Assembly (NCBI RefSeq): GCF_005377625.1
Contig: NZ_CP040098.1
Coordinates: 1,481,501 to 1,545,500 of the forward strand
Source: Desulfoglaeba alkanexedens ALDC
Lineage (GTDB): Bacteria; Desulfobacterota; Syntrophobacteria; Syntrophobacterales; DSM-9756
Length of the DNA stretch: 64,000 bases
Direction of reading: 5' to 3'
The notes below the pieces were generated by a model, which was not told the origin of the DNA, searched no databases, and worked only from the letters and a program-made list of their open reading frames with translations. Made by a program: the position numbers and the translations under genes. Within the stretch, counting starts at the first letter, position 1. Each line of letters starts with the position of its first letter. Positions 4,837 through 39,865 of this stretch are shown piece by piece.

Positions 4837-6624
4837 TCACGGGTCCATGGCATCCTTCCCGCCCAGTCCGTTGGTCTCGAGAAAGGCTTGCACCGTATTG
4901 AACGCATTGAAAAACAAGGGGGTGCCAGAAAAGGAGAGGGGACTCACAGGCCCGATGGTCATGAAGGAATATTGCCGGCTCTTGGGATCGAACGCCGAAT
5001 GAGGGTCACGGAAAAGCTGATAGAGATCGAGAGCCGGCCCCGATGAGCCCACCAATTGCCGAAGCGCCTGGAACTCCTGGCCCAGCGCCAGCCCAAAGCC
5101 GAAGAAAAAAATGCGAAGCTGTTGCAGAATCTCCGGGTGCAGGCTCGAAAGCGTTTGACTGATGAAGAGCCACCCCAAGCCGTACTTGCGGGTGGTGCGA
5201 GCGGCGTCGATGAGCACGGACCGTACGCCGCGGGCGGCATCGCTATCAACTGAAAGATCGCGGGGGGCCAGCCGGTGCGCCTCGTCGATGATGACCAGGG
5301 CGTTGAGGCTTTGACTTTTCCTGTAAAAGTACTCCGCGGTCTGCGCCAGTCCGTCCAGGAGCCGCTTGATCACCAGGGACTGTATCTTGTCGTTCCAGAA
5401 AAGGCCTTGCGCCTGCTCCTTGGAAAGATCGATGACGAGGATGGGGCGGTGGGTACGTTCGCTCCCGTCCGGGTTCGCCCGGTGCAGCAACCAGCTGAGA
5501 GCCTTGTTGATGCTTTTGGCTCCGGTTCGGTCTTCGCGGAAGAGTTCCGCTACGGGGCCCCAATATTCCTTGAAAAATTCATCGGGATCGGCTTCCTTCA
5601 GGGCGGAATCGAATCGTGCCCGCGAGGTTTCGGTGCGATAGAAGACCTTCTGCACCTTATTGTCCCCGAGGAGGCTCCAGGCCGTAGCAAACGACTGCTG
5701 AAGATGAAGATCGCTGAGTGGGATTTTCTTTTTGCGAAGCTTGTCCGACAAGATCCCACATGCCAGCTCCCGATTCTCTCCTTTCGGAATGGTCAGCCGC
5801 TCAAAGAACAACGACTCGAAAAGAATCTGCTCAAAGAGCTCCCACCGATCGAGAACCAAGTTCCGCACGGTCAAGACCACCTGGCGCTTTCCAAGCTTCC
5901 TCGCCACGTCGCCCAGGGGCAATGGAAACTCACCTCCGGTATCTCCCTTCATGTCGCGAGCAAACTCACCCTGAGGATCGATGACGAGAAGCGCCATTTG
6001 GGGATAACGCGCATAGGCGAGGAGGATCATCTTGGCCAGAACCGACTTCCCTGATCCCGTCTTTCCGAAAATCCCAAGATGGTAAGCCTCGCCCGCCCCG
6101 TCTTTTCCGCGGTCAAAATGCTTGAACCATAATGGAAGCTTCGGCTTGGAACCGTAGACATGGCCCAGGTAAAAGATTTGATCCCTGCAGGGATGAAGGA
6201 GTTCATCCAGTACCTCATCCGTCACCAGATGAACGGGTGTTCCGGTGGAAGGCACCGTGCCCAGAATGCTCGGTTCATAGCCGGTCGATCCCCCTTCGCG
6301 AAAGACGGCGCTGATCACCATCTGTCCGAGGTGCGTGTCCTGCCGCTCACTCACCGCATCCACCCTTCCCCGTTGTCGGATGAGGCTACGCATGGTGGGG
6401 TCCTCATGCCAGATGTTCCTCAGCTTCACTTCGGTGATTTGACCCAGGGCGTAATGGGGGTTCGAATCCTGCAAAAAACGAAACAGCGCCAGTTCTCCCA
6501 CCAGCTTGCGCGTCACGGCCGACCCTAGAATATCGAGGGTGAGTTCCGCCGTGGAGGACGGTGATCCCAAGACCCCAAGCCGTTCCGTGTCATCGACGAT
6601 GGTTCCCAGATCCTTGGGCGCCAT
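4837..6624 (-). CDS. herA: HerA-like hexameric DNA translocase ATPase (DUF87)
   Basis: 595 aa. N-terminal HAS-barrel-like region, then a FtsK/HerA ATPase core with Walker A GKTGSGKS at about residues 187-194, Walker B-like LLVIDPQG shortly after, and ALVIIDEAHRLAP in the C-terminal half. The ATG at 6624 was preferred over the GTG at 6645 because GGGGAG stands 9 nt upstream and it lies 4 nt after the nurA stop. HerA pumps DNA into the NurA nuclease in archaeal end resection, and bacterial HerA proteins recur in phage-defence systems. It is the last gene of a three-gene unit with nurA and a DUF4338 gene. HerA assignment is firm; the role is inferred from neighbours. Confidence 0.9.
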   Translation of the reverse strand: MAPKDLGTIVDDTERLGVLGSPSSTAELTLDILGSAVTRKLVGELALFRFLQDSNPHYALGQITEVKLRNIWHEDPTMRSLIRQRGRVDAVSERQDTHLGQMVISAVFREGGSTGYEPSILGTVPSTGTPVHLVTDEVLDELLHPCRDQIFYLGHVYGSKPKLPLWFKHFDRGKDGAGEAYHLGIFGKTGSGKSVLAKMILLAYARYPQMALLVIDPQGEFARDMKGDTGGEFPLPLGDVARKLGKRQVVLTVRNLVLDRWELFEQILFESLFFERLTIPKGENRELACGILSDKLRKKKIPLSDLHLQQSFATAWSLLGDNKVQKVFYRTETSRARFDSALKEADPDEFFKEYWGPVAELFREDRTGAKSINKALSWLLHRANPDGSERTHRPILVIDLSKEQAQGLFWNDKIQSLVIKRLLDGLAQTAEYFYRKSQSLNALVIIDEAHRLAPRDLSVDSDAARGVRSVLIDAARTTRKYGLGWLFISQTLSSLHPEILQQLRIFFFGFGLALGQEFQALRQLVGSSGPALDLYQLFRDPHSAFDPKSRQYSFMTIGPVSPLSFSGTPLFFNAFNTVQAFLETNGLGGKDAMDP

Positions 6625-6628
6625 GAAC

Positions 6629-7777
6629 CTAACTCCCCGAGTCACTCCGGTAACCGTGCAACGCCAGATAGATCTCGCCGATGTCTCCCCTGTATTTTTC
6701 GGAAATCCGCTGGGTCGTGACCTGCCGAAACGCGGGAAGCGCTTGGGCCAGCGCCTTCACCATTCTGTCGGCCAGGTAGATCGGGTAAGGTTCGAGCATC
6801 GAAGACGTGGCGCACTGATGCTTCAGCCCTTGAACGACGGTGGCGAGCCGGTGGGTATTGACGGCGACGCCTTGACCTACTTCTACGCGCAGCGCGGGCA
6901 ACCAATCGTGGGGTTTGTAATAGAAAACGTGGATGCGACGGAGTCCCTCGACAATCTCCGCCGCCACTTCCCCCGCACGCTCTTTGACCGAACCCGGCAA
7001 CCGATCGGTGTTCAGGTGCCAGTCCTGTTCCGGTGGCTGCAGCGGACGCGGAAGCGTCAGCTCGCCGGGCTTGAGCAGCAACGTCAACATGCCGCGGTCG
7101 TCGTAACTCGGGGGCCATCCCGCCTCCAGACCGATCTCACGCCGGGTGGAATACTTCGGCAGAGCGATGTATTGCCTGTCGGAACGCTCGCCGTGCAGGA
7201 TGGCCCGATAGGCAGTCAAATAGTCAAGGCAGTTTTCAATGAAATCGCGCGAACACAGCAGATCGCGGGTGTCCGGAGCCTTGTTGAGGGCCTGGTTGAA
7301 GTAGATGACCGGCAGGGTGAGCGTCCCGTCGAGCATCACGAGATCGTGGGGCGCGGCCGTTGCGAGGCACAGCTCTTCCCCGAGCATCAGCGCCCTGAGT
7401 ACGGTCGCCGTATCGTCCAGGTGGGGCTCGGCGGCCATGAAGGTGCGGTGGTGCGGCCGTTCCCAGTGGCGTTTTTCCGAAGGCGGGGTGAGGCCTTCCA
7501 CGGCGACAGCCGCGGCGGCGACCAAGTCGGTTGTGAGAAGCCTTTCGATGGCGTAGGACCCATCGGCGCCGCAGGTGGTCGGAAGAGGCGGATAACCCAG
7601 GGCTGACTCCGAAACCACAACCCCCGATTGCGCCAGCCGCTCCCTGAGGGTTTCCCGGTCTTGTCTCATTTTCGAAAAATCGGCCAGGAGTTCCTCCGCG
7701 ACGCCCTCGCATTGGCCGAGGACCGCTTCGACGAGAACGGCTGGCAGATCGCCGAACGGTGCCTGATCCTGCGCCAC
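6629..7777 (-). CDS. nurA: NurA-family 5'-3' nuclease
   Basis: 382 aa with NurA-domain features: an acidic motif DGSYAIERL in the N-terminal third, MLDGTLTLPVIYFN about 80 residues later, and C-terminal FYYKPHDWLPALRVEV and LEPYPIYLADRMVK blocks. These DGS and LDG aspartates are the expected metal ligands in the RNase H-like NurA fold. It starts with GTG at 7777; AAGGG upstream overlaps the stop of the DUF4338 gene (7785-7787). It ends 4 nt before the preferred herA start, so the two are probably translationally coupled. A NurA-HerA complex degrades or resects DNA ends; a defence role is inferred from the DUF4338 partner and island location. Confidence 0.85.
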   Translation of the reverse strand: MAQDQAPFGDLPAVLVEAVLGQCEGVAEELLADFSKMRQDRETLRERLAQSGVVVSESALGYPPLPTTCGADGSYAIERLLTTDLVAAAAVAVEGLTPPSEKRHWERPHHRTFMAAEPHLDDTATVLRALMLGEELCLATAAPHDLVMLDGTLTLPVIYFNQALNKAPDTRDLLCSRDFIENCLDYLTAYRAILHGERSDRQYIALPKYSTRREIGLEAGWPPSYDDRGMLTLLLKPGELTLPRPLQPPEQDWHLNTDRLPGSVKERAGEVAAEIVEGLRRIHVFYYKPHDWLPALRVEVGQGVAVNTHRLATVVQGLKHQCATSSMLEPYPIYLADRMVKALAQALPAFRQVTTQRISEKYRGDIGEIYLALHGYRSDSGS

Positions 7778-7784
7778 GATCCCG

Positions 7785-8924
7785 TCACCCTTTCCTTGGC
7801 CACAGCCGATATTGTTCTCTTCTAAATTCGCGATATTCCGGCATCCGGCGGGCCCTCCCGATGAGCCACCTTTCCCTGAACGCTTCCGACAGCTCCCGTG
7901 CCCGCCGGTCGTAAAAACGGGGCGCGTTGACGTCTCCTCTCAGGAACCGGACGGCGTCGGGGCTCAAGGGTGCTGCGAAAATTTCCCGGCGAATGCCGTG
8001 GTAGATGAAGTCCGCCGATAGGCCGAGTCGCGAAAGGCACTTGCGGATGACTTCGCGCCGGTTCCGAAACCCTCTTCCCCAAGCGCCATGCTTGGCGGTT
8101 GGTTGGCAGTGCTTTTCCACATAGGCCCGGATGTCTCCGTAAACACCGTTGGAAAAATGAAAATCCCCCGACCCCCTGGTGAACCCCAGGCGGGTCCAAT
8201 AGTCTTTGCCGTCGATGCGGATGCGGTTGTAGATGGAAGATCGACCGAGGGCCGAAGTGGTCGTGACCAGCGCAAGATAAGGCGGCCGGGCTTGGTTTCG
8301 GATCAAGGATCGTTTGCCGCCGTACTTCTCACGGAATGCTTCCCGGACTTCGTTACTGCAAACGAGTAGAGCCACGAGCTTTCCGCCCAGCAGAAACGAG
8401 TAGGGAGGCACGGCACCAAGCACGTAGGCATCCATGACGTGGTAGAGGCGTTGCGCTTTCTGCTCTCGGTCCCATCCGATCCATCGGTCTCGGGCTCGCA
8501 AAGAATACACCGGATCGCCCAAGCCGAACAAACCGATGAGCTTGTCGTTGCTTTCATCGAAAACGACAAAGCGGAGCCTTCGGCCGTAGCCCGCTGAAAC
8601 GGGGACGCTCCAATGCAGGCAGGCGTAGCGAAAGAGGCGTTCGTATTCGGACTTTGGCTCCACGACAACCAGCTTCGGACGCACCGCTTCGGGAACCACC
8701 TCTTTCCCGTCGGCGATATATCGGATGAGGCGCTCTTCGTGGGGCCGAATTCCGGGACCGCACACTTCGAGCTTCTTTTCCAGCGCCATTCGATGGAGAG
8801 CGCGGAAATCGTCCTTTGTGGCCCCCTCGGGCATGCGGATTTCGCCGTCCCGCACCTCATAGCCCTGCTTTCGAAGCGAGCCGATGATGGCGGCTCTCAA
8901 TTCATCGGATGACGACACCTTCAT
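7785..8924 (-). CDS. DUF4338 (DruA-family) protein
   Basis: 379 aa from the ATG at 8924 (an in-frame start at 8987 would add 21 residues; neither has a strong Shine-Dalgarno). The central block GRRLRFVVFDESNDKLIGL, RDRWIGWDREQK and LVTTTSALGRSSIYNRI matches the DUF4338 pattern of DruA, a component of Druantia type I anti-phage systems; the biochemical role is not established. DUF4338 genes also occur as passengers next to transposases. Here it heads an operon with nurA and herA (7-bp gap to nurA), a pairing I do not recognise as a named system. It is separate from the DruE-like gene 30 kb away. Confidence 0.82.
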   Translation of the reverse strand: MKVSSSDELRAAIIGSLRKQGYEVRDGEIRMPEGATKDDFRALHRMALEKKLEVCGPGIRPHEERLIRYIADGKEVVPEAVRPKLVVVEPKSEYERLFRYACLHWSVPVSAGYGRRLRFVVFDESNDKLIGLFGLGDPVYSLRARDRWIGWDREQKAQRLYHVMDAYVLGAVPPYSFLLGGKLVALLVCSNEVREAFREKYGGKRSLIRNQARPPYLALVTTTSALGRSSIYNRIRIDGKDYWTRLGFTRGSGDFHFSNGVYGDIRAYVEKHCQPTAKHGAWGRGFRNRREVIRKCLSRLGLSADFIYHGIRREIFAAPLSPDAVRFLRGDVNAPRFYDRRARELSEAFRERWLIGRARRMPEYREFRREQYRLWPRKG

Positions 8925-9831: not shown

Positions 9832-10668
9832 TCAATGTGGGAATTTGCTCTCCGGATTACGGAAGATGGACTCAAGGCCTTTTCGCATTTCCACATGAAA
9901 ATAGTTGCAGCACATCACGACATAATCTTCGCACGACCGTCCATCATAGACGAGCCAGGGGAAGATGCAGCTGGTCCAGAGAACCGCCGACGGTACGGTG
10001 CATTGGATCTGTCTTGAAGGGATCTGATGTGTCTTCTCCAGCCGTTTGTGATCGGGATGGTCCGTTATTCCTGCGTCGAAGAGAGCACGGCTTCTTTCCG
10101 TCGCCGAAATGTTGAAAGCCGGGGAGAGATAGCGAATACCGCATTCTGCAAAAATATCACGCGCCATGGTTTTTACGTCTTCCAACTGTGAACCGTCATC
10201 GAGTTGCTCAGTGTTGCTGCCGTCACAAATGGTGCGAATGCCGCTCTTGTAGCAGAACTTTATGGCGGCAAGCTCCATGGCAATTTTGCATTGCAGGCAT
10301 TCGTTGGCCATAAACAGTTTCAGCAAGTTTTCCTCGTACCTGGCTCGCCCAGACCGTGCTCCGTGGGGGTCTTCCCATAAGGGGCCGATCTCCTGCCGCA
10401 GCACCGCCTCCTGCACTTCTATCTTCTCCTCATGGGGAGCGACCATTTGGTAAATCTCCTCGAAGTTCTCCAGCGAATGCAGTATCTCCTTATCAGGAAA
10501 GGCCCGCCTCAAACGCTGAACCCCCTCCTCGACATTTTCACACTTTCTAAAACCGCGCCTGACGAACGTTACCAGGTGGATGCGGTCGTAAAGCGGTATT
10601 TGCGACCATGCGGCGTATGTTGAATCCGTGCCTCCGGAAAACATGATTGCAACGACTTTATCCGACAT
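9832..10668 (-). CDS. PP-loop (N-type ATP pyrophosphatase) family protein
   Basis: 278 aa. The N-terminus VVAIMFSGGTDSTYAAW carries the SGGxDS PP-loop of adenine-nucleotide alpha-hydrolases, the superfamily of QueC, TilS, ThiI and GuaA. An ECLQCK pair (about residue 125) and further cysteines in the C-terminal third could bind a metal or carry sulfur. Such enzymes adenylate a substrate before amidation or thiolation; the substrate here is unknown. The ATG at 10668 is preceded by AGGAGA. QueC-like proteins occur in some defence systems (for example QatC), but no Qat partners are seen. It is close behind a possibly broken small gene (10672-10872). Confidence 0.75.
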   Translation of the reverse strand: MSDKVVAIMFSGGTDSTYAAWSQIPLYDRIHLVTFVRRGFRKCENVEEGVQRLRRAFPDKEILHSLENFEEIYQMVAPHEEKIEVQEAVLRQEIGPLWEDPHGARSGRARYEENLLKLFMANECLQCKIAMELAAIKFCYKSGIRTICDGSNTEQLDDGSQLEDVKTMARDIFAECGIRYLSPAFNISATERSRALFDAGITDHPDHKRLEKTHQIPSRQIQCTVPSAVLWTSCIFPWLVYDGRSCEDYVVMCCNYFHVEMRKGLESIFRNPESKFPH

Positions 10669-11579: not shown

Positions 11580-13853
11580 GTGCCGCTGAATCTCACCGAT
11601 CTCAAAAAAGAGGCCATGGTCTCTGGTCTTCGGCCCGGGGGGCCGGTGCGCATCATCGATGTGCGCTGGCACCGAAGCGACGTAGTGGAGGTGGTCTTTC
11701 GGGACGCGGCTGGAAACGTGAATCAGCAGCTCCTCTTTCGCGACGACGAGCCTCGCCTGAGCCTGGAAGCCTCGGGACAGTCCTGGGCCTTTGATACCGA
11801 TGGTGAGATGTTCCGCCTGGCCTCGGAAGCCCATCGCATTCGGCTGGCCCACCTGTTCGATCCCTACCTGGCCGTGCACACGTCTCTGGTGGAGCCCCTG
11901 CCGCATCAGATCACGGCCGTTTACGGCGAGATGCTGTCGCGCCAGCCCCTTCGGTACCTGCTGGCCGACGACCCGGAGGTCCAGATCCTGGTAGCCACCG
12001 ATGCCGCAGGCGAAGGGGTGAACCTGCAGCGCGCCCACCTCATGGTCAATTACGACCTTCCCTGGAACCCCAACCGCATCGAGCAACGCTTCGGGCGTAT
12101 TCACCGCATCGGCCAGACGGAAGTGTGTCATCTCTGGAACCTGGTGGCGGAAGAAACCCGGGAAGGCGACGTCTATCTCACGCTGCTCCGTAAACTCGAA
12201 GTGGAGCGCGAAGCTCTGGGCGGCGCCGTCTTCTACGTACTAGGAAAGGCCGTAAGCGGCATGGCCTTAAGGGAGCTTCTCATCGAAGCCATCCGCTACG
12301 TGGAGTGTTCCGAGGTGCGGGCGCGTCTGACCCAAAAGGTGGAAACGGCTCTGGACCGAAAGCATCTGCAGGATCTCCTGGAAGAACGCTCCCTCGCCCG
12401 CGACGTGATGGAAATCCGACGGGAGATGGAGCGGGCCCAGGCGCGTCGCCTGCAGCCGCACTTCATTGAAACCTTTTTTCTGGAAGCCTTTCGACGCCTG
12501 GGCGGAACCATTGTGGAGCGGGAACCGCGCCGTTACGAAATACGCCATGTGCCCGCCCTCGTCCGCCGCCGGGATCACCGAATAGGCCGAGGCGAAACGG
12601 TGCTCCCTCGCTACGAACGGATCTGCTTCGAAAAGGAAAAGGTGCACGTACCGGGAAAACCCTTGGCCGCCTTCGTCTGCCCCGGCCACCCGCTCCTGGA
12701 CGCCGTGATCGACCTCATCCTGGAACGGGATCGGCACCTGCTCAAGAAGGGCGCCTTCTTCGTGGACGAAAGCGATGCTGGACACGATCTTCGCACCCTC
12801 TTTTATCTGGAGCACGCCGTCAGGAACGGCCGGAAAGACGCCACGGGAGCCCGCCGGATCATCTCGCAGCGGCTCCAGTTTGTGGAAGCGGATGCGACCG
12901 GCCGTTTCCGGCGGACCGGCATGGCCCCGTACTTGGATTACCGGCCGCTGACCGACGAGGAGCGCAGCGTTCTGGAATGTCACGTGGAAACCCGCAATTG
13001 GCTGGAGCGCGACCTGGAATCGCAAGCGGCCTCCTATGCCGTGCGCACTCTGGTGCCCGAGCATTTCCGGGAGGTGCAGGCCCGTACCGAAGAGCGGGTT
13101 CACAAAACGGCCGCCGCCGTCAAGGAGCGACTCACCAAGGAGATCACCTACTGGGATCACCGGGCGGAGGAACTCCGGTTGCAGGAAGCCGCCGGCAAGG
13201 TGAACGCACGCATTAACGCCGCCAAGGCCCGAAACATCGCCGATGAACTCGCCCAGCGGTTGCAGCGCCGCCTGGCCGAACTGGAGGAAGAACGAAACAT
13301 CTCGGCGCTGCCTCCCGTGGTGGTGGGCGGAGCGATCATCGTGCCTCGGGGCCTGCTGGATCGGCTGCAGGGAAAGCCCCGGCCGGAACCGGACCTGGAC
13401 GGCGATCTTCGCGTCCTGGTGGAGCGCATCGCCATGGAGGCCGTCTTGGCCAGAGAACGCGCTCTGGGCTTCGAGCCCCGGGACGTGAGCGACCTTAAGG
13501 TGGGCTACGATGTTGAATCGGCTGTACCCGGAACCGGAAAACTCCGCTTCATCGAAGTGAAGGGCCGGGTGGAAGGGGCCGACACCATCACGGTCACCAA
13601 GAACGAGATCCTCACGGCCCTGAACAAACCGGAAGACTACTTCCTGGCCGTGGTCCTCGTGAGCCGGGATCGGCTGCACCAAACGGCCGCTTCCGGAAGC
13701 CTCGCCGACGTGCCGGTGGCCCAGGAAGGCCAAACACCGCTCAAACCGACTTCCGACGGCCTGCGCCTCCATTACTTGGCGAATCCCTTCCAGCGGGAAC
13801 CGGACTTCGCGGCCACCAGTGTAACGTACGATTTGAAGCAACTGATCGGGTAA
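11580..13853 (+). CDS. SNF2-type helicase-DUF3883 protein lacking most of its motor core (internal in-frame deletion)
   Basis: 757 aa from a GTG with AAGGAGGA upstream. The N-terminus is the leader of large SNF2 helicases of restriction/DISARM-like loci and reaches EMLSRQPLRYLLADDP, where relatives continue into the Walker A GAGKT. Instead it jumps at about 11975 to EVQILVATDAAGEGVNLQ and RIEQRFGRIHRIGQ, helicase motifs V and VI. Motifs I-IV are missing. The long coiled region and C-terminal DUF3883 nuclease-like domain (FIEVKGRVEGADTITVTKNE) remain. Relatives are typically well over 1000 aa (from memory). It cannot hydrolyse ATP normally. Downstream are RHH, PIN and a truncated DUF1156 methylase. 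Confidence 0.85.
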   Translation: MPLNLTDLKKEAMVSGLRPGGPVRIIDVRWHRSDVVEVVFRDAAGNVNQQLLFRDDEPRLSLEASGQSWAFDTDGEMFRLASEAHRIRLAHLFDPYLAVHTSLVEPLPHQITAVYGEMLSRQPLRYLLADDPEVQILVATDAAGEGVNLQRAHLMVNYDLPWNPNRIEQRFGRIHRIGQTEVCHLWNLVAEETREGDVYLTLLRKLEVEREALGGAVFYVLGKAVSGMALRELLIEAIRYVECSEVRARLTQKVETALDRKHLQDLLEERSLARDVMEIRREMERAQARRLQPHFIETFFLEAFRRLGGTIVEREPRRYEIRHVPALVRRRDHRIGRGETVLPRYERICFEKEKVHVPGKPLAAFVCPGHPLLDAVIDLILERDRHLLKKGAFFVDESDAGHDLRTLFYLEHAVRNGRKDATGARRIISQRLQFVEADATGRFRRTGMAPYLDYRPLTDEERSVLECHVETRNWLERDLESQAASYAVRTLVPEHFREVQARTEERVHKTAAAVKERLTKEITYWDHRAEELRLQEAAGKVNARINAAKARNIADELAQRLQRRLAELEEERNISALPPVVVGGAIIVPRGLLDRLQGKPRPEPDLDGDLRVLVERIAMEAVLARERALGFEPRDVSDLKVGYDVESAVPGTGKLRFIEVKGRVEGADTITVTKNEILTALNKPEDYFLAVVLVSRDRLHQTAASGSLADVPVAQEGQTPLKPTSDGLRLHYLANPFQREPDFAATSVTYDLKQLIG

Positions 13854-13961
13854 CGGGTAAGAAGAAAGAGTGGGAGGCAAGGAAACGTTCAAGTCGTCCT
13901 TTCTCCTTCCCTCCTTCCTCATCCAGAGGCATAATCGGTAGAGAACTCCTGGAGGGAACTT

Positions 13962-14201
13962 ATGTCCACCAAAACCCGCAAACTCAACTTCAGTATCGAC
14001 GAAGACCTCTGCCGTGCCTTGGAGGAACTCGTTCCCTCGGGGCAACGCAGCCGGGTCGTCAACGAGGCGCTTCGCCGGGAGCTGGACCGGATCCGCCGCC
14101 AACGGGCGGTGGAGGAACTCAAGGCCGCTCCCAGGCCTCCGGCGTCTTTGACCAACGACGAGATTGTTTCGTCTCTGGCCCGCGACCGCGCTTCCCACTA
14201 A
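13962..14201 (+). CDS. Ribbon-helix-helix antitoxin-like protein
   Basis: 79 aa; ATG preceded by GGAGGGA. The N-terminus TRKLNFSIDEDLCRALEEL followed by SRVVNEALRRELDRIRR is an RHH/MetJ-Arc fold typical of VapB-type antitoxins that bind their own promoter and neutralise a PIN toxin. It lies 10 bp before the PIN gene and within the helicase/methylase locus, a common position for TA pairs in defence islands. Confidence 0.8.
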   Translation: MSTKTRKLNFSIDEDLCRALEELVPSGQRSRVVNEALRRELDRIRRQRAVEELKAAPRPPASLTNDEIVSSLARDRASH

Positions 14202-14211
14202 AGGACCTGTC

Positions 14212-14646
14212 GTGCCGGTGCCGCGCATGGTAGTGGATGCTTCGGTCATCCTCAAATGGGTGCTGGGATCGGACCGCGAACCCGATCACGGGTGCGCCCT
14301 GCGCATCCTGGACGACTGGGCGGCGGGCCGCATCGAACTGACGGTTCCATCCCTGTGGGAATACGAGGTGGGAAATATTTTGGGCCGGGAGATTCCCCAC
14401 CAGGCTTTGCGGAAGATGAAGTTGCTGCGCAATCTGCGCATGATCAACGAGCCCCTGAACGAGGAGATGATCGGGCTCTGTTTTCAGTGGATGGAGCAGG
14501 CGGCGGTCACCTTCTACGATGCCTCTTACCTGGCCGTCGCTGTGGTCCTCGACGGGCGGCTTGTAACCGCCGATCGCCGCTTTGCCCAACGCATGGCACG
14601 TCCCGACCGCATTCTGCTTGTTTCCGACTATGGAAAGGAAGGCTGA
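14212..14646 (+). CDS. PIN-domain ribonuclease toxin (VapC-like)
   Basis: 144 aa from the GTG at 14212 with AAGGA just upstream; an ATG at 14227 is the alternative. It shows MVVDASVILKW with the first catalytic Asp, a Trp-Glu-Tyr-Glu stretch in the middle, and TFYDASYLAVAVVLDGRLVTADRRF with the distal Asp residues. PIN toxins of this class cleave RNA, often tRNA or rRNA. Its partner is the RHH gene upstream. Complete and probably functional. Confidence 0.82.
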   Translation: MPVPRMVVDASVILKWVLGSDREPDHGCALRILDDWAAGRIELTVPSLWEYEVGNILGREIPHQALRKMKLLRNLRMINEPLNEEMIGLCFQWMEQAAVTFYDASYLAVAVVLDGRLVTADRRFAQRMARPDRILLVSDYGKEG

Positions 14647-14652
14647 AATCCC

Positions 14653-15228
14653 ATGAACGGCAAGAAGATACTCATCGAAACGGCGCTCCCCCTGGATGCC
14701 GTCAATCGAGAGTCGGCTCGGGAAAAGTCCATCCGCCACGGGCACCCGAGCACCCTGCATCTGTGGTGGGCCCGGCGCCCTCTGGCTGCTTGCCGGGCGG
14801 TGCTCTTTGCGCAGTTGGTGGATGACCCGTCCGCCCATCCCGACAAGTTTCCCACCCAGGAGGACCAGCGCTGGGAAAGGGAACGTATCTTCGGCATCAT
14901 GGAAGACCTGGTCAAGTGGGAGAACATCAATATCGGAGTGGCACTTCTGGTCTCCCGTGATGCTCAGCTTCCCCTTTTCTACCGGGAATACGAGGGAAAC
15001 CGACATGATTCCAAACAGTTCAACATGATCCTCACCGAAATGATCGCCCGCATGAATGAGTCTTCCGGGAACGAAGAGGGCGGACTGACCCTGGTCTTTG
15101 ACAAGGGGATGAACTCGGAGGAGAACATCGCCCTCATTGACTCCACCGCCAGGGTGCATTTCATCACCACCTACTCTCCCTGTTGCGAGCGAACATGCGA
15201 GCCTCCCCTTAGGACACTCACAAATTAG
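14653..15228 (+). pseudogene. Truncated DUF1156 DNA methyltransferase fused to an IS1634-type transposase fragment
   Basis: Codons 1 to about 93 ([40 protein letters not shown]) are the DUF1156 N-terminus of large adenine-specific methyltransferases. At about 14930, within [11 protein letters not shown], the frame switches to the catalytic middle of an IS1634-type transposase ([43 protein letters not shown]). It ends in an inverted IS end. The methylase catalytic motifs are gone, so it is inactive even though the frame is open. The fusion arose by IS insertion and deletion. Confidence 0.82.
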
Positions 15229-15495: not shown

Positions 15496-15981
15496 TTAAG
15501 ACTCACGTGCCAACTTGAGAATACGCTCTTTCATTTCAGCAGAAATCCACATACCCACATCGCTCATTTTCAATACATACGGCTGGACTTTCTCGATAAT
15601 GCCATGAGATTTTGCTTCCAATAAAACCTTCAGTGTTCCCCAAACTTGCAAGCCTGCGACCTGTGCAGTTCGACGAGCAAGCATATCATCAAGCAAAACG
15701 ATCCTATCTGGATTTTCCAGTGCCAGAGCCATCGCCGCAATTTCGCCTACGCCCAAATCCAAAGCAAGCCATTCTGACGGGGTAGATTCTGGATTGACAA
15801 CATTCAGCCACGAATAGTCATCTGGATTGGGAACATCGTAACCTTTGCTTCTTCCTGCCTGCAATTCATTTTTGACGGCTTCGGGCATCCAAACTTCATC
15901 GAACAATTGGGGAAGCCACTCAAGACCACCAATGCGAAATAGGTAAAGGAGCGGCGAAGTATTGCTGACAGCTTTAAGCAT
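15496..15981 (-). CDS. DUF3368 PIN-like toxin
   Basis: 161 aa. VSNTSPLLYLFRIGGLEWLP at the N-terminus, LGVGEIAAMALAL and RIVLLDDMLARRTAQVAGLQ are the acidic motifs of DUF3368, a PIN-like nuclease family paired with UPF0175 antitoxins. Its start overlaps the end of the UPF0175 gene by 8 nt, so the two are coupled. The pair sits alone in a segment bounded by integron-type cores, as is common for cassette-borne toxin-antitoxin modules that stabilise arrays. Confidence 0.85.
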   Translation of the reverse strand: MLKAVSNTSPLLYLFRIGGLEWLPQLFDEVWMPEAVKNELQAGRSKGYDVPNPDDYSWLNVVNPESTPSEWLALDLGVGEIAAMALALENPDRIVLLDDMLARRTAQVAGLQVWGTLKVLLEAKSHGIIEKVQPYVLKMSDVGMWISAEMKERILKLARES

Positions 15982-16225
15982 GGGCGCTTTCTAAATCGTC
16001 AAGTTCTGCGACAAACGGAAACACCTTATAGCGATTCAAACTGAGCAAAAACTCAACTCTGGACATTCCCGCCAATTCAGCAGCTCGCCCAGAGGAAAGC
16101 CTGCCCATTTCATACAACTTGACAGCCGCCAACATGCGGATTTCACGCCCAAACGACTCGGCGTCCGTCTTTTCGGCAAGAAGCACCTTGTCTGGGATCT
16201 CAATCGTAATTTGTTGGAGAGCCAT
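15974..16225 (-). CDS. UPF0175 antitoxin
   Basis: 83 aa; ATG with GGAG upstream. ITIEIPDKVLLAEKTDAESF, LAAVKLYEMGRLSSGRAAEL and AGMSRVEFLLSLNRYKV form the UPF0175 pattern: a strand followed by a helix-turn-helix-like segment. It is the antitoxin and likely autorepressor of the downstream DUF3368 toxin. The cassette core GTTGGCA lies 80 bp upstream, so the module fills one cassette. Confidence 0.83.
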   Translation of the reverse strand: MALQQITIEIPDKVLLAEKTDAESFGREIRMLAAVKLYEMGRLSSGRAAELAGMSRVEFLLSLNRYKVFPFVAELDDLESAHA

Positions 16226-30630: not shown

Positions 30631-32377
30631 CAGCAATTTCCGGAGCCCCTGTAAAGCCTTGAAAACCGGGCATTGAAGGATTTGGTTTTCGCGAACCCAG
30701 GGGGTGGTTTCGGGCTCCGAAGGGGGTTTCGGAGGTGAATTTTTTCGACTATTTTGCTGTTTCATGCTGGACAGCCGCCCGCGTCTCTGGTAGGCTATTT
30801 TGCCATGAAGCCCAGCAAAGACGCTCCTTCCTCCAAGATCCGACTTCGCAAGCATCTGAATGCAGATGCCCTGGTGAGAGCGGTGCGTCGTGAGTTCGAA
30901 AAGATCCCCGATCCCCGCAAAGGCACGCCGCAGATCTCCTTTGCGGATGCGGCCATGAGCGCCTTCGCCATGTTTTCTTTGAAGGATCCCTCTCTTCTGG
31001 CCTTTGAGAAACGCTGGTCGGCTCGGGATCACAACCTGCACGCGCTCTACCACATCGAGAAGATCCCTGCCGACAGCACCATGCGGGAAATTCTCGATGA
31101 GGTTTCGCCCTATGTGTTCCGACCCGCCTTCGGCGAGATCTTCTCACGGCTTCAGCGCGGCAAGGCGCTGGCTCAGATGACCGTGCTGGACGGCCACTAC
31201 ATCCTGGCCCTGGACGGCACGGGCTATTTTTCGTCGGAAAAGGTCTTTTCCGACGCCTGCCTTCGAAAAACCTCTGCCACCGGCAAGACCACCTATTCCC
31301 TCCAAATGATGGGAGCCGCCCTCGTCCACCCGGACCACAAGGCCGTGATCCCCTTTCCCCCCGAAGTGATCCGAAGAGAAGACGGTGACACCAAAAACGA
31401 CTGCGAACGCAACGCCGCCGGCCGTTGTATCGAGAACCTGAGAACCGACCACCCCCATATCAAGCTCATCGTGACCGAAGATGCCCTCAGTCCCAACGCT
31501 CCCCACATTGAAACCCTCAAGCGCTTCGACTGCCGCTTCGTCCTTGGGGTTAAACCCGGCGATCACGCCTTCCTTTTCGAAAAGGCCGACGAGGCCATCG
31601 CGGAGGGCCGGGCTGTGGAGTTCTGGCACGCAGCGGAAGACAACCCCGAAACCCTCCATTACTTCCGCTTCATCAACGATCTTCCCCTCAACAAGTCCCA
31701 TCCCGACCTACGAGTGAACCTCCTCGAGTACTGGCAGGTGACTCCCAAGGGGCTTCTGCGGTTTTCCTGGGTCACCGATATCCTCATCCGCCGGGAAAAC
31801 GCCGTTACCTTGATGCGGATCGGCCGGGCACGCTGGCGCATCGAAAACGAAATCTTCAACACCTTGAAAAACCAGGGCTACCACCTCGAACACAACTACG
31901 GTCTGGGCCGAAAACACCTTAGCGCCGTTTTCGTCACCCTCATGATGTTGGCCTTCTGCGTGGACCAGAGCCTCCAACTGTGTTGCCCGCTGTTTCAGGC
32001 CGTATGGCGAAAGCTCCAAACCAAACGGGACCTCTGGGAGAGGATCCGGGCCATGTTCTGGGACTTCCGCCTGGAGTCCATCCGGATGCTCTACGAGGCC
32101 CTTCTTTACGGATACAAAAGGCTGACCCCGATCATCGCCTATAACACCTCGTAGGGCGGAGAAAGGAATTACCCCATGCAGAACCTGAGCCTTTCACCCG
32201 AAAAACCGACGCGGAGGTGCGCCTTCAAACCGGGCATCTGAGCCCCTCACGCTCCGGGTGGCATCCCTCAACGGGACGTTCGGACCCTCGATCACCCCAA
32301 ACGGCCCGCTGAACACTCGAAGACTCTCCTTTCACGCCCGCTTTTCACCCAAGGACTATCCGCTCCGGGAATTGCTG
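30631..32377 (+). mobile_element. Intact DDE insertion sequence C, copy 2, with perfect 9-bp target duplication
   Basis: 1747 bp. Inverted ends CAGCAATTTCCGGAG (30631-30645) and CTCCGGGAATTGCTG (32363-32377). CTAGATCGT occurs directly outside both ends (30622-30630 and 32378-32386). Its transposase is intact, so this is a recent insertion by an element likely still active. It sits in the last codons of the AIPR gene. Confidence 0.93.
30805..32154 (+). CDS. DDE transposase of IS C (IS4-like, intact)
   Basis: 449 aa from the ATG at 30805; an in-frame start at 30754 would add 17 residues. Catalytic residues can be placed: Asp in YILALDGTGYFSSEK, Asp in LIVTEDALSPNAPHIETL, Glu in RIENEIFNTLKNQGYHLEHN, the last a Y-(2)-R-(3)-E-(6)-K-like block of IS4-related enzymes. 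The N-terminal segment (HLNADALVRAVRREFEKIPD) is the DNA-binding part. Full length and undamaged, in contrast to copy 1. Confidence 0.92.
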   Translation: MKPSKDAPSSKIRLRKHLNADALVRAVRREFEKIPDPRKGTPQISFADAAMSAFAMFSLKDPSLLAFEKRWSARDHNLHALYHIEKIPADSTMREILDEVSPYVFRPAFGEIFSRLQRGKALAQMTVLDGHYILALDGTGYFSSEKVFSDACLRKTSATGKTTYSLQMMGAALVHPDHKAVIPFPPEVIRREDGDTKNDCERNAAGRCIENLRTDHPHIKLIVTEDALSPNAPHIETLKRFDCRFVLGVKPGDHAFLFEKADEAIAEGRAVEFWHAAEDNPETLHYFRFINDLPLNKSHPDLRVNLLEYWQVTPKGLLRFSWVTDILIRRENAVTLMRIGRARWRIENEIFNTLKNQGYHLEHNYGLGRKHLSAVFVTLMMLAFCVDQSLQLCCPLFQAVWRKLQTKRDLWERIRAMFWDFRLESIRMLYEALLYGYKRLTPIIAYNTS

Positions 32378-34095
32378 CTAGATCGTGAGCCCACACTGGA
32401 CTTGGCAGCTGAAACTAAATCAGGAAGCTTTTTGTTCTTGGCATTCTTGTAACGCGACATTCGCAAGGCAAGTTTTTGATCAATCTTTTGGAGAAATTTT
32501 GGTGATCTTAACGCAGCACGGACGGTCTTGAAATCCTCAAGGTCATAGGTGTCTATAGCGAGTTCTGTGAATAGCTGTAATCCTTCGACTGCATACTTCC
32601 TCAAAGCATTCTGGAAGTCATTAGATGCCATAGCCTCCAACGAAATTCGAAGAGGGGTTCGGTTCAACTCCTCCACGAGTTTCGATGAACAGTGGACACC
32701 CCAATACGTTCCACTCACACCCAGCAACGCTCCGGTTGTCTTATCAGCGTCGCCAGCATCGACAAGGCTTTGCAGTTTCGATTGGCGTTCCTCATCAGTC
32801 TGTATGCCTAAAAGCCAGTAGAGATAGACTCTTTCAGGTGCAACATCATGTGGGAACAAGCGTTGGTAGTGACGGTCGAATAGCTCCTGTTTCTCCTTGA
32901 CCGCATCGATTAGTGTGTCAGGATAGCCCGCTGCCAAGTACTGGGCAACACGATCAAGTTCCATGATGGACTGGTAGTCCTTTCTCCGTCTGCTACCTTC
33001 CTGCTTTGGCGCGTACTGTATGTCAATATTTTTGAAAGACTCACGAAGACGCTCCTGGACAGGGTCTACTGACCTTACAGCCCAAATCTTAACCGGGTTT
33101 TGAGTGTTGTTGTACCTCACTATATCAGTCAAGAGCGTTGGCTTTGCTGCAACGACTCTGGTCAACACATTGGCATTATCCGGTGCTCCGGCGTTATGAA
33201 GAGATACAGTTGTTTGGCATCCGTTGACAATACTAAACCGAGTAAGCCTATATGTTTTATCACTTTCTTTTGTGCAGGTATTTGCTACGATGGTGATCCC
33301 GTTGTTCAAGGCCCAAAAGAGACCTGGTGATGTCCTGGCTGTTTCTATCATCCTTTCATTGATTCCGCCTTTTCTTGCCCCTATGAAGTAACGAACATTG
33401 CCTTCGAACAGACGCCGTCCGTGAGCTTTGTACAAGCGTCCAAGTTCGGCGGCAGGGACACTCCCAACGATCGCTCGTCCATATTCTCCGGAATCCTCAA
33501 ACACTCCGCCTGCAAAGGAGATTGTGTCCTCAGGAACAGACTTGTCTGCGGACCGGAATACAGCGTATTGATTCAAGATGTCATCACACGGCGCATAGAA
33601 GAATTTGATCCCCCTGAATTGTTGAGCACGATTGGCTTGTGCGCATGCCCGTTCAATCTGGTCGGATTTTTTGGCCAGACTAATCAGCCCTAATTCAATG
33701 TCATATTCGGAAATCTCAGCACCAGCCTCTTCGAGGATATCCGCTACATCAGAGCGACCGGCGTCAGACATCAACTTTGGATTCTGTATTGCCGGAATGG
33801 ATGCAACCAAGGCATCCCATTTGGACTTGGGGGTAGCTTTCTCTCTTCTTTTCGGATAGTGTACCTGCAATACGGTTATTCGACCATTGGGGTGGTCTAC
33901 GAGCAGCACGTCTATCCCTTGGTCCTCTGGACCGTCTACAGAAGCTCCTTCAAGGGCCTGATCTTCGTCGAAATCAAGCAGGGTTGTCGCATACCATGCG
34001 CCAAAGCCTCGTTCCTCAGAGATCCCGCCACGTCTCGATAGCTCCTTAACAGACGCAGCAATCTCTTGAAGCAGTTCATTCTCGTCAAAACTCAT
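32356..34095 (-). CDS. AIPR-family abortive-infection phage-resistance protein, 3' end replaced by an IS
   Basis: 579 aa; ATG at 34095 with GGGAG upstream. Features of the AIPR family: an N-terminal nuclease-like region (DGPEDQGIDVLLVDHPNGRI, VLQVHYPKRR) and the AIPR core (FEGNVRYFIGARKGGINERM, GLFWALNNGITIVANTC, IVNGCQTTVSLHNAGAPDNA). AIPR proteins abort phage infection, likely through nucleic-acid cleavage. IS C has inserted at 32378, so the last codons now read into the IS; without it the protein would end SSIIKRQ (stop 30605-30603). The changed tail is short and the protein may still work. Lower GC than neighbours; it forms a cassette bounded by GTTGGGG at 34125-34119. Confidence 0.82.
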   Translation of the reverse strand: MSFDENELLQEIAASVKELSRRGGISEERGFGAWYATTLLDFDEDQALEGASVDGPEDQGIDVLLVDHPNGRITVLQVHYPKRREKATPKSKWDALVASIPAIQNPKLMSDAGRSDVADILEEAGAEISEYDIELGLISLAKKSDQIERACAQANRAQQFRGIKFFYAPCDDILNQYAVFRSADKSVPEDTISFAGGVFEDSGEYGRAIVGSVPAAELGRLYKAHGRRLFEGNVRYFIGARKGGINERMIETARTSPGLFWALNNGITIVANTCTKESDKTYRLTRFSIVNGCQTTVSLHNAGAPDNANVLTRVVAAKPTLLTDIVRYNNTQNPVKIWAVRSVDPVQERLRESFKNIDIQYAPKQEGSRRRKDYQSIMELDRVAQYLAAGYPDTLIDAVKEKQELFDRHYQRLFPHDVAPERVYLYWLLGIQTDEERQSKLQSLVDAGDADKTTGALLGVSGTYWGVHCSSKLVEELNRTPLRISLEAMASNDFQNALRKYAVEGLQLFTELAIDTYDLEDFKTVRAALRSPKFLQKIDQKLALRMSRYKNAKNKKLPDLVSAAKSSVGSRSSSNSRSG

Positions 34096-34118
34096 TGCGT
34101 AACTCCCTTTCTTCTGCA

Positions 34119-34125
34119 CCCCAAC
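34119..34125 (-). other. Integron-like core GTTGGGG at the 5' boundary of the AIPR cassette
   Basis: CCCCAAC on the plus strand, one mismatch from the GTTRRRY core, 23 bp before the AIPR start. IS element A copy 2 begins exactly 9 bp further at 34135, the same spacing as at 16976/16986. Confidence 0.5.
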
Positions 34126-36049: not shown

Positions 36050-39000
36050 ATGCCGGTCTTGGCATCCATCAGTTGCGAGCTAATCCAGGAATCCTGCCTC
36101 GCGTCGCGGTATGTCGATAGGGGGCAGGAGTACAGGGATCCCAACCTGTTTGCAAGGCATCTGGGTCAAGCGGTCCTTGAGCGGTTCAGCGGTATCCGAC
36201 TGATCGGAGAAATAGAGCGCAGGGAAGGCGAAGAGACGTTCAAGGCGTTGCGCGATGCTCTGCGTGATGCTCTGTCGCGGACTTCTTTGGGGCAAGTCTG
36301 CCAAGCCGGATCACCCCCTTGGAGGGCAGTTCTCAGCCTCTATTTCGTTTGGACGGGGATATTCGCTTTCGGTGAGAAGGCGGGACACGATCTCTGGCCG
36401 CCCGTCATGGAAGGCCTGGGACTTCCGGTGGATGGGAACCTCGCGAATCGTTGCGGGCTGCTATTTGCCCAGTGCTTGAAAGAAAACAGGCTCGAGGAGT
36501 TTGAGGCGCTCAAGGATGGGCATCGCTTCGTGACCCGGATCCTCCTGCACGGCTTGATACCCCATAAGCATATCCATCGTTTCATCACTGATCTTATTGA
36601 GCCGGAGCTGCGGAGTCATCTCGGAGTTTACACCACCGGGGAGCATCTCGTCAGAAAATGGAAGCAGAAAGGAATGCTTGCTTACCTTCCGAGGCCCATT
36701 CAGCGCTTCATTGAACATGGCGATCCGGTCAACGTCAACATCGCCGAACGATTCCTCGACATGGCCAATCGTTGGGACGAGGACGACCCCGCTTTGTGGC
36801 GGCAGTGGGGCCTTCCCCAATACATGGTGAACGCCTTTAGAAACCATGTGAGGAGCCGGGATGGAGGCACCATCAGAAAGTCCTGGGCGCCGGCATCTAA
36901 GGAACGGCCGTATTTCTATTTCGATCTGCAGCAAAGCGAGGTACCCCTCCTGCATATCCCTGCCCAGCAAATGAAATCACCGGTCGATTTTCAGCTGAAG
37001 TGGAGGGACCTCCAAGGAGGGGAACGCCAACAATCTCTCCAGATGAACCTGACCCCGGTGGATGGTTCGCACTACACGGAGCCCCAGGATCTGGATGTCG
37101 GCCCCTGTGATGACGGCATCAATCTGGAAGCAAGAGATCGGTCATCCGGAACGGTTTCGACGCAGTTCATCCAGGCTCCCATGGCCACAAGCAACGGAGG
37201 GGCAAGGCTGCCTCTGTACCTGTTCAGTCGGTCAACGGGAAAGCTCTTGGATTTAGGTGGTGGTAAGAGGGCCCTTCCGGAAGAGCTGCTCCTGGTCTAT
37301 CCAAACGACTCTACTCTGGAAGTAAGGGGCGGACGCCTGTCGAGTGAACCGGAGCGCATGGCGGGCAGCTGGAGCGGATGGCAGTACGCTCTATGCACGC
37401 TCGAAAACGACGGGTCCTTCGATTACCGCGGACCGGACGCGAGCTTCCGCGCAGAGACCTCTGCAACGGTTGACTTTTCCTTCAACAGTCTGGGCGAAAC
37501 CCCTTACCTGGAAGGTCGCGGACAGGCTCCACCGTGGCTTCGGTCTCTTGAAGGTTGGCCGATCTTCAAGGATCCGGATCAAATAGCGGTCGTATGCCCT
37601 GAGGGGGGCTATCCCGTGTGGCGAAACGCCTTCGGGAAGTTGATACGACGAGATCAGACCGGGTTTACGCAGGCAATTGATCTTGCCTTCCGTAAGCAGG
37701 GCGCAGAATATGAAGTTGGAATCGCCTTCCCGCCACAGTGGGAGCCCGGAGTGTATGAGATCCATTTGCGGGGGCCTCTAGGCATCGAGGATGTGATCCT
37801 GCCTTTCATCTACCTTCCCTTATCGGATTTTGAGTTGGTCAGAGAACCGGAGACTGGGCCTGTCTCCGAGTTCCGTTTTCGCTGTGGCCAAAAGGTAGTG
37901 ATGGAGCCATTGTTCCACACCACCATGGGTGATGAGTCTGGGATAATCGTCCTGTCGCTGCAACAAGATCGAGGGCAGGCCTTCTGCGGTATCAAGGTGT
38001 TTGCCCATTCCAGGATGCCTGTGACTCTGCTTCTGGCTCGCAGTGATCTTCGATGGTCGCGACGGAGTGATCGAGGGCTGTTTCACTGGGACCTTTGGCG
38101 GTGTAGGCCGGAAGAAATTCCCGTGCAGCGCCTGGATGAGATCTCGGATGCCAGAGTAGCCGTCCAATTCGATAGTTTTTCTCCCGGTGGGGCACGGGGA
38201 CGAAGCCCCAAACTTCAACTTCTCTTGAAGACCTTGGGGGAGAAGACCGAAGAGGAGCAAACCCTCTATTCCTATGACGCCCCGGCGTTTCGAAGAAACG
38301 TAAACGACACGTGGCTCGTCGATCTGAAAAAGTTTTCCGACCTCATCAAGTCACTTCGCTCGGTGGAAGCCGCTGCCGTTACAGTGCGTTCCTTCGACGG
38401 ACGAGGCGAGCTCGTCCTGTTCACGATCTTGAAACATCCGGCATTCAAGGATTTTCGGGTTGAGCTGGCCGGAGGGGGTGAAAAGACCGAAAGACTAAAG
38501 ATATCCTGGACTCCACAGAGAAATGATCCTCAAACTGGACGTTTCGTAAGGATTTATCCGGAAGGCGAGCCCAGGGGTGGCACGTTATACCGTCTCCAGG
38601 ACGGTGCGGCGCCGCCTTTCGAGATTCCTATCGGAGCCACAGACAAACCGGGATGTTGGTACCTCAGGATGGAGGCCCATCGATCGCGGTTCGGAGCCTT
38701 GAGCGCCGCATCCGATTCAGCACCGTCTTTCAAGTGGTTGCGGGCGCCGCAAGGGTGGGCGGACTGGCTGGAATGGCCAGAGATCAAAGCAAAGGAAGCC
38801 CTAGAAAGAACCAGTGGCATCCAGGCTGTTAGCAAGGAGACTCTTCAGAGATCTTTCCCCTGGTCGAATTTTCTGGTTCGCTTCCATTACGACAAGGGAG
38901 AAGACTGTTTCGAGTGCATCAGATCCATGCTCGGGGAGAAGACCCTGGAGATCTTGCTTCCCTATACCCGTGGAACGGTTTGGGAGGCTAAGGCGGCATC

Positions 39001-39865
39001 GGGATCCAAAGTCTCGGTTCAGATCATTGATTCATCCGCGGAGCCAGCGACGCTCAAGAATCTCCTCTCAGGTAAAGAGCCGTGCGGGTGGTATACGATT
39101 CCAGACGAAATCGAACTGGAGCTATCCATGCTTTATTCGCATCGCGATCTTGGAAAGGCGGGCTCTCTATGGAAATGTAGGAAGACTATGAAAGATGATG
39201 AGGTCTGTTTCCTGTCCGATGCGGGCCGAGAACTGGATCTCCCCGTTTGGCTGGAAGATGCCGTTTACCCCGATCAAACGGGGAGTCTCCTGGCCCGCTG
39301 CGACTTGGAGCAATGCTGGTATGCCGCACCTTACCTGCCTATCCTCAAACACATCGGGCGTAGCGACCTTTTCTTCGCTGAGCCCAAAAAGGATCCGGAG
39401 CAACCTGTACAAAAGCGGCGCCCCCAGGCTCACAACACGGGGCTTACTACCTTGGGCGAGCTGATAAAGGCTCAAGATTGGAAAACCTTCACACATCAAT
39501 ACTTCGAGGTCTGCAAGCCGCAGGAAAGGACTGAGGCGGACTCTCTTGTTGAACAGTGGCAAAAATGGGGAAAGCGAACGACCGTCAATCGTTTTCTTGG
39601 AAGGATGGTTATGGGTCGCCTCAGGAAGGATGGACCCAATGGGCTTTCGGGAGTGGCCGCCTTCATTGCGAGGCTGCGTGCGCGCGAACTTTGGACTGAC
39701 GCCGTTCGTGGATGGGGGGCAGACGGGGGTAAAGGGATCGATCGTCTCTATGAGAGAACGCTGGAACTCGTTCGCAAGACGACTCCGAAAGCCTTCCTGC
39801 GAGATCTCATTCTGAGCGAAATCATCATCTCCTGGTACTGGAATCAGCCACTGGCAAAAATTTGA
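36050..39865 (+). CDS. Large protein of a DruH-DruE-like (Druantia type III-like) defence pair
   Basis: 1271 aa; ATG with GGGAGG upstream. No enzymatic motif is evident. The N-terminal about 270 residues are helical with aromatic positions (WRAVLSLYFVWTGIFAFGEK, HRFVTRILLHGLIPHKHIHR, LPRPIQRFIEHGD), followed by a long beta-rich middle (repeated strand-rich blocks such as GVYEIHLRGPLGIEDVILPF) and a helical C-terminus. It lies 56 bp upstream of a 2062-aa DUF1998 helicase. That size pairing and order match Druantia type III, where DruH (YjiT/STY4851-like, about 1.1-1.3 kaa from memory) precedes DruE. I could not align it to DruH, so the name rests on context. No frame damage. Confidence 0.65.
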   Translation: MPVLASISCELIQESCLASRYVDRGQEYRDPNLFARHLGQAVLERFSGIRLIGEIERREGEETFKALRDALRDALSRTSLGQVCQAGSPPWRAVLSLYFVWTGIFAFGEKAGHDLWPPVMEGLGLPVDGNLANRCGLLFAQCLKENRLEEFEALKDGHRFVTRILLHGLIPHKHIHRFITDLIEPELRSHLGVYTTGEHLVRKWKQKGMLAYLPRPIQRFIEHGDPVNVNIAERFLDMANRWDEDDPALWRQWGLPQYMVNAFRNHVRSRDGGTIRKSWAPASKERPYFYFDLQQSEVPLLHIPAQQMKSPVDFQLKWRDLQGGERQQSLQMNLTPVDGSHYTEPQDLDVGPCDDGINLEARDRSSGTVSTQFIQAPMATSNGGARLPLYLFSRSTGKLLDLGGGKRALPEELLLVYPNDSTLEVRGGRLSSEPERMAGSWSGWQYALCTLENDGSFDYRGPDASFRAETSATVDFSFNSLGETPYLEGRGQAPPWLRSLEGWPIFKDPDQIAVVCPEGGYPVWRNAFGKLIRRDQTGFTQAIDLAFRKQGAEYEVGIAFPPQWEPGVYEIHLRGPLGIEDVILPFIYLPLSDFELVREPETGPVSEFRFRCGQKVVMEPLFHTTMGDESGIIVLSLQQDRGQAFCGIKVFAHSRMPVTLLLARSDLRWSRRSDRGLFHWDLWRCRPEEIPVQRLDEISDARVAVQFDSFSPGGARGRSPKLQLLLKTLGEKTEEEQTLYSYDAPAFRRNVNDTWLVDLKKFSDLIKSLRSVEAAAVTVRSFDGRGELVLFTILKHPAFKDFRVELAGGGEKTERLKISWTPQRNDPQTGRFVRIYPEGEPRGGTLYRLQDGAAPPFEIPIGATDKPGCWYLRMEAHRSRFGALSAASDSAPSFKWLRAPQGWADWLEWPEIKAKEALERTSGIQAVSKETLQRSFPWSNFLVRFHYDKGEDCFECIRSMLGEKTLEILLPYTRGTVWEAKAASGSKVSVQIIDSSAEPATLKNLLSGKEPCGWYTIPDEIELELSMLYSHRDLGKAGSLWKCRKTMKDDEVCFLSDAGRELDLPVWLEDAVYPDQTGSLLARCDLEQCWYAAPYLPILKHIGRSDLFFAEPKKDPEQPVQKRRPQAHNTGLTTLGELIKAQDWKTFTHQYFEVCKPQERTEADSLVEQWQKWGKRTTVNRFLGRMVMGRLRKDGPNGLSGVAAFIARLRARELWTDAVRGWGADGGKGIDRLYERTLELVRKTTPKAFLRDLILSEIIISWYWNQPLAKI

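Follow-up and report, generated by a model that had tools for sequence, protein, structure and literature searches.

A conserved druA-nurA-herA operon, a candidate defence system whose DruA is predicted to belong to the Mom superfamily

The window analysed here is a stretch of 64,000 nucleotides from Desulfoglaeba alkanexedens ALDC (contig NZ_CP040098.1, positions 1,481,501 to 1,545,500), whose genome consists of a single contig of 3.37 Mb. Three genes lie head-to-tail on its minus strand in the order druA-nurA-herA, separated by spacers of 7 nt and 4 nt. The first gene of the operon, druA (7785..8924), starts with ATG and encodes a protein of 379 aa of the form called type 1 below, which matches the DUF4338 profile PF14236 from position 3 to 297 of 297 with 436 bits (cut-off 27) and is thus a full-length member of the family. 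Its best match in PADLOC is DruA1 (393 bits). The nuclease gene nurA (6629..7777, 382 aa) has a GTG start and is followed by herA (4837..6624, 595 aa), which encodes a hexameric ATPase/translocase of the HerA family; the start of herA was set at the ATG at 6624, as in its relatives, with a GTG at 6645 also being open. HerA matches the DUF87 core (PF01935) with 44 bits, and NurA matches PF09376 with 23.1 bits at a cut-off of 21, its identity being confirmed through structure. No second NurA was found in the source genome. An earlier note on this DNA had described the three genes as nearly contiguous, their motifs as intact and DruA as a member of a family of Druantia components, all of which is borne out by the coordinates, the profile scores and the residues described next.

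The identity of NurA was settled by structure comparison, a search of its sequence profile against the PDB having given no match. Its AlphaFold2 (AF2) model, with a pLDDT of 90.0, is closest to the solved NurAs, namely SsoNurA (2ygk, Z 22.2 over 299 residues in VIA-align) and the NurA of T. kodakarensis (9x1m, Z 21.8), with TdpB (8wfd) behind them at Z 14.1. D72, E94, E214, D227, E299 and E329 are invariant in all 65 sequences compared and D150 is found in 64 of them, so that fold and conserved acidic residues together identify the window protein as NurA. HerA has an intact Walker A (GKTGSGKS) and Walker B (IDEAH), with GKxGSGK invariant and DEAHR conserved among its relatives. In the PDB, the profile of HerA finds TdpA (E 1.9e-8), Sulfolobus HerA and further HerA chains, which we take to be those of the solved anti-phage HerA complexes; all of these matches are modest.

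The conservation of the operon was assessed by a HerA-alignment scan of 84,980 species genomes, which returned 119 relatives, and by searching the neighbourhoods of the best 80 of the 119, all from other species, with the three window proteins. nurA adjoins herA in 71 of the 80 loci with a median gap of 2 nt. At 61 loci there is enough sequence upstream of nurA to judge the druA position, and druA abuts nurA in 51 of them, with a median overlap of 4 nt. The other ten comprise three with one gene between druA and nurA (L052, L059 and L065), two with a divergent, type-2 DUF4338 protein at the druA position (L084 and L085), one with druA downstream after herA (L090), one in which druA is adjacent to a split nurA and therefore falls outside the 51 counted by the adjacency filter (L091), and three where no upstream druA is seen (L043, L076 and L081), the druA of L076 possibly lying past the contig end. 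Chance adjacency of the three genes is ruled out by this contact in 51 of 61 informative loci, and the search for the same neighbourhood elsewhere, which the earlier note had proposed as a check, thus came out in its favour.

The hosts of the trio include Deltaproteobacteria, Gammaproteobacteria, Clostridia, Chloroflexi, Acidobacteria, Deinococcota, Cyanobacteria, Poribacteria and two archaeal MAGs. Among the carriers are the cultured strains Tepidiphilus olei J18 (L022), Methylococcus capsulatus Texas (L040), Pyrinomonas methylaliphatogenes K22 (L086) and Thermovorax subterraneus DSM 21563 (L054), the last with a nurA that reads as split. HerA is 76-85% identical between distant phyla while nurA of the window type occurs in only 2 of the 98 related genomes searched, the source genome included, which implies horizontal spread. 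Protein distances are correlated for nurA-herA (Spearman 0.72), druA-herA (0.55) and druA-nurA (0.70), with permutation maxima of about 0.2, so the three genes travel together. A Pfam scan of the flanks of the trio loci found no recurring fourth gene of the operon, and nothing related to the PP-loop ATPase gene of the window (9832-10668) lies close to the trio at other loci. No HerA relatives were found in phages; among viral contigs, one short NurA segment was matched. The trio is a conserved, horizontally spread operon. PADLOC-DB 2.0.0 holds no model for this trio and gave no match to NurA, and no description of a DruA-NurA-HerA trio was found in the literature searched; one may already exist in a preprint, in a paper behind a subscription or in a more recent defence database. 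Within these sources, the earlier statement that no named system unites the three genes holds.

A role in defence is supported by genes taken up inside the operon. TmtA of Tiamat, with its sacsin and NOV_C domains, is inserted at L052 and L059 (E 3e-98), GmrSD lies between nurA and herA at L057 (E 6e-34) and a BrxD-like ATPase occupies the same position at L072; the insert at L065 is an ATPase-like gene with pentapeptide repeats. In the flanks of the trio loci, a PADLOC scan found no clear excess of defence genes over random genome stretches of the relatives, the strong matches being mostly generic helicases in both. The case for defence is therefore built on the in-operon genes, the horizontal spread and the protein families and not on island enrichment. 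From this genomic support the trio likely acts in defence, and its earlier description as a candidate undescribed defence module stands, as a candidate. The argument drawn from its place at the edge of a defence island fares less well: the island is real, but the flanks make it a weak argument.

Several features make up this island in the window. A DruE homologue (39922-46110, plus strand, 2062 aa, PADLOC DruE1 602 bits) is preceded by a protein of 1271 aa with no Pfam or PADLOC match (36050-39865, plus strand), which may be a DruH that has escaped recognition, the two then forming a pair like that of Druantia type III. An AbiU homologue (32356-34119, minus strand, PADLOC 125 bits) has transposase fragments nearby. 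The Hma remnants at 11580-15228 consist of an HmaA helicase without its N-terminal part (927 bits) and an HmaB cut to about its first 110 residues, and between them sits a PIN-domain-like ORF. The window also holds a UPF0175 antitoxin-like gene (PF03683), which adjoins a PIN-like toxin gene at 15496-16225 on the minus strand.

A motor-nuclease formed by HerA and NurA is established in archaea (PMC12977600), and in archaea and Deinococcus the pair serves DNA end resection (PMC12977600, PMC9960219). The trio could by this token be a housekeeping repair pair with DruA as an accessory and no dedication to defence, and the window NurA does share its gene pairing and its fold with these enzymes, to which its fold is closest. 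We consider such a role improbable, given the patchy, horizontal distribution of an operon with HerA so similar across phyla, the defence genes inserted into it and the presence of DruA, whose family is otherwise known from Druantia. The operon also differs from the resection complex in having no Mre11-Rad50 genes.

For DruA, the sequence search against the PDB gave chance coiled-coil matches only. Its AF2 model (pLDDT 92.7) retrieves nearly exclusively acetyltransferases among the top 50 Foldseek matches, each of them weak (best E 0.017). In VIA-align, where the matches are likewise GNATs, the top row is phage Mu Mom (8bv8), with the longest alignment among the matches listed (184 residues) and a Z of 9.4 that is tied with ordinary GNATs. 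Mom is a DNA methylcarbamoylase, the base that it modifies being adenine. The link between Mom and DUF4338 becomes clearer when the two forms of this family are separated, type 1 being that of the trio operon and type 2 being usually shorter and solitary. Type-2 members include a protein of the source genome (L097) and the proteins at the druA position of L084 and L085. In a PHROGs search type 2 resembles a "Mom-like DNA modification protein" (E 2e-5 and 1e-3), and hhalign of a type-2 profile against a Mom profile, each of 13 sequences, gave a probability of 96.5 and an E of 9e-10. Column-shuffled Mom reached probabilities of 0.2-0.4 and generic GNATs 0.3, the latter from a shallow control alignment of five sequences, one of which (L167) is probably in the wrong reading frame. 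All 13 type-2 sequences keep Mom H58, Y59, R111, S124, G156, Y159, A161, N163 and G168, and 10 of the 13 keep D149; S124 is the residue changed in the "inactive mutant" of 8bv8 and corresponds to S212 in the type-2 protein L097.

The connection of type 1 to Mom runs through type 2 as a bridge and through the fold. Type 2 and the type-1 DruA of the window are clearly related in hhalign (probability 97.9, E 5e-13), whereas the direct profile comparison of type 1 with Mom is not significant (probability 1.2). Type 1 is also without the strict Mom signature, as Mom H58, Y59, S124 and D149 align with W105, S106, G181 and N233. It has an invariant set of its own instead, namely W105, R115, D123, R145, G181, K182, S224, S229, S230, Y232 and R234. 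By modelled fold and by profile homology through type 2, the window DruA is a GNAT-fold protein of the Mom/GNAT superfamily. The host-encoded DruA differs from Mom in its longer N-terminal part and in the other invariant residues at the Mom active-site positions. The GNAT fold agrees with the label given to DUF4338 in a published account, where it is called a GNAT domain and occurs fused to the defence ATPase DndF (PMC10853773). These DndF-fused domains share with the trio a DUF4338 GNAT; they differ in being without NurA-HerA, and the passage that describes them does not mention Mom. "Mom-like" and Druantia were not found mentioned together in the literature searched.

The type-2 protein of the source genome (L097:8117-9013, at about G000:C1:1188203) is solitary, carries the full Mom signature and lies among ordinary flanking genes, which makes it a candidate cellular DNA-modifying enzyme by its residues. 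In one relative genome (G027) there are 13 DUF4338 matches, three at a score of 110.6 and four at 84.9, and such equal scores suggest recent duplication or mobility of type-2 genes. Together with the transposase genes that flank some DruA loci, these repeated copies would fit a trio that belongs to the machinery of mobile elements, with a transposon-borne DruA and a function in processing element DNA or excluding competitors. This must be seen as very improbable, since no transposase or integrase is a consistent member of the operon across the trio loci and the type-1 DruA of the trio is a single copy in the source genome, where two other DUF4338 genes exist.

DruA diverges faster than HerA, with a mean identity of 0.44 compared with 0.63. 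Between L063 and L051/L055, HerA is 80% and NurA 76% identical while DruA is only 31% identical, which indicates an exchange of druA, as would be expected of a subunit that confers specificity or marks DNA. NurA is altered at all three loci where no druA is seen: at L043 (Pyrinomonas) an IS has removed the 5' end of nurA, D337 is missing from L076 and L081 and from no other of the 65 sequences, and L081 has also lost D150. This is consistent with a dependence on DruA, and suggestive only, as the pattern comes from three loci and the NurAs of L076 and L081 are also the most divergent of the set. Upstream of the truncated nurA of L043 lie an IscB-like ORF and IS256-type transposase fragments (L043:2953-4404 and L043:5863-6952).

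Among known systems, SIR2-HerA and DUF4297-HerA likewise couple a HerA ATPase to an effector encoded alongside; the trio differs in having NurA as its nuclease and a third gene of the DruA type. Druantia type I (DruABCDE) shares the DruA family with it, and the window DruA is 37-42% identical to a Meiothermus DruA and to those encoded at two plasmid loci resembling Druantia. The trio operon is, however, without druB-E and has NurA-HerA as effectors in place of the DruE helicase (DUF1998). In the window, druA neighbours nurA-herA and the DruE homologue lies 31 kb away with a partner gene of its own, which sets the locus apart from Druantia type I. A close parallel is Tdp (TdpA-TdpB-TdpC; PDB 8wet/8wfd), in which a phosphorothioate modifier works with the HerA-like TdpA and the NurA-like TdpB. 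Both systems combine a HerA-like hexameric ATPase, related to TdpA, and a NurA-like nuclease, related to TdpB, with a third partner, which is the modifier in Tdp and would by analogy be so in the trio. The differences are that the third protein of the trio is a DruA of the Mom/GNAT superfamily and not a phosphorothioation enzyme, and that its NurA is nearer to archaeal NurA than to TdpB.

A Mom-superfamily protein in the position of the third Tdp partner suggests the same logic of self and non-self. The reading we favour, at somewhat less than an even chance, is a Tdp-like three-protein system in which DruA modifies host DNA and HerA-NurA destroys DNA that is unmodified. From family and fold, and following archaeal HerA-NurA, the HerA hexamer would pump double-stranded DNA into the NurA dimer, which would cut the DNA fed to it. 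DruA would set which DNA is spared: it, or the relative with the Mom signature at L084/L085, may modify host DNA, with the modification presumably serving as a self mark, and HerA-NurA would degrade DNA that does not bear it. Against such marking stand the missing signature residues of the window DruA, the insignificant direct comparison of type 1 with Mom and a structural score no better than that of ordinary GNATs.

The missing Mom residues also bring a second possibility close to marking in likelihood. DruA could be a reader that has lost Mom catalysis and binds DNA that is foreign or modified, or else a structure induced by phage, and then loads or activates HerA-NurA in the manner of a type IV restriction or sensor system, which comes near to the idea of the earlier note. 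This is a rather unlikely but serious alternative, to which the distinct invariant residues of type 1, the faster divergence of DruA relative to HerA and its exchange between loci all lend weight. The many invariant polar residues, on the other hand, suggest an active site and not a fast-evolving sensor, and where a type-2 protein stands in for DruA the Mom signature is retained. The earlier proposal that DUF4338 supplies target recognition needs revising, as a GNAT-fold, Mom-related protein could with no lower probability mark self DNA or read a mark.

If marking by DruA is extended to its relatives, DUF4338/DruA would be a large and so far unrecognised family of cellular Mom-type DNA modifiers, with DruA writing a protective base modification other than methylation and HerA-NurA processively degrading unmarked DNA. 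Restriction-modification would then rest on acylation by a GNAT fold, or on chemistry akin to it, where other systems use methylation or phosphorothioation. This wider proposal is speculative, and we would regard it as doubtful for now. If the defence reading is true, a widespread three-gene system would join the known HerA-nuclease defences, and a testable biochemical role would be at hand for DruA, which is often named as a component of Druantia. Should DNA be modified by DruA or by its solitary relatives, a base modification so far overlooked may be present in many genomes, and Druantia itself could be understood as linked to modification. Through its relation to Mom, the function of DUF4338 becomes a question for mass spectrometry in cultured strains. 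Another combination of DruA with a partner is seen on a Roseivivax plasmid (L132:2-3747), where a long DruA is preceded by a GHKL-type ATPase.
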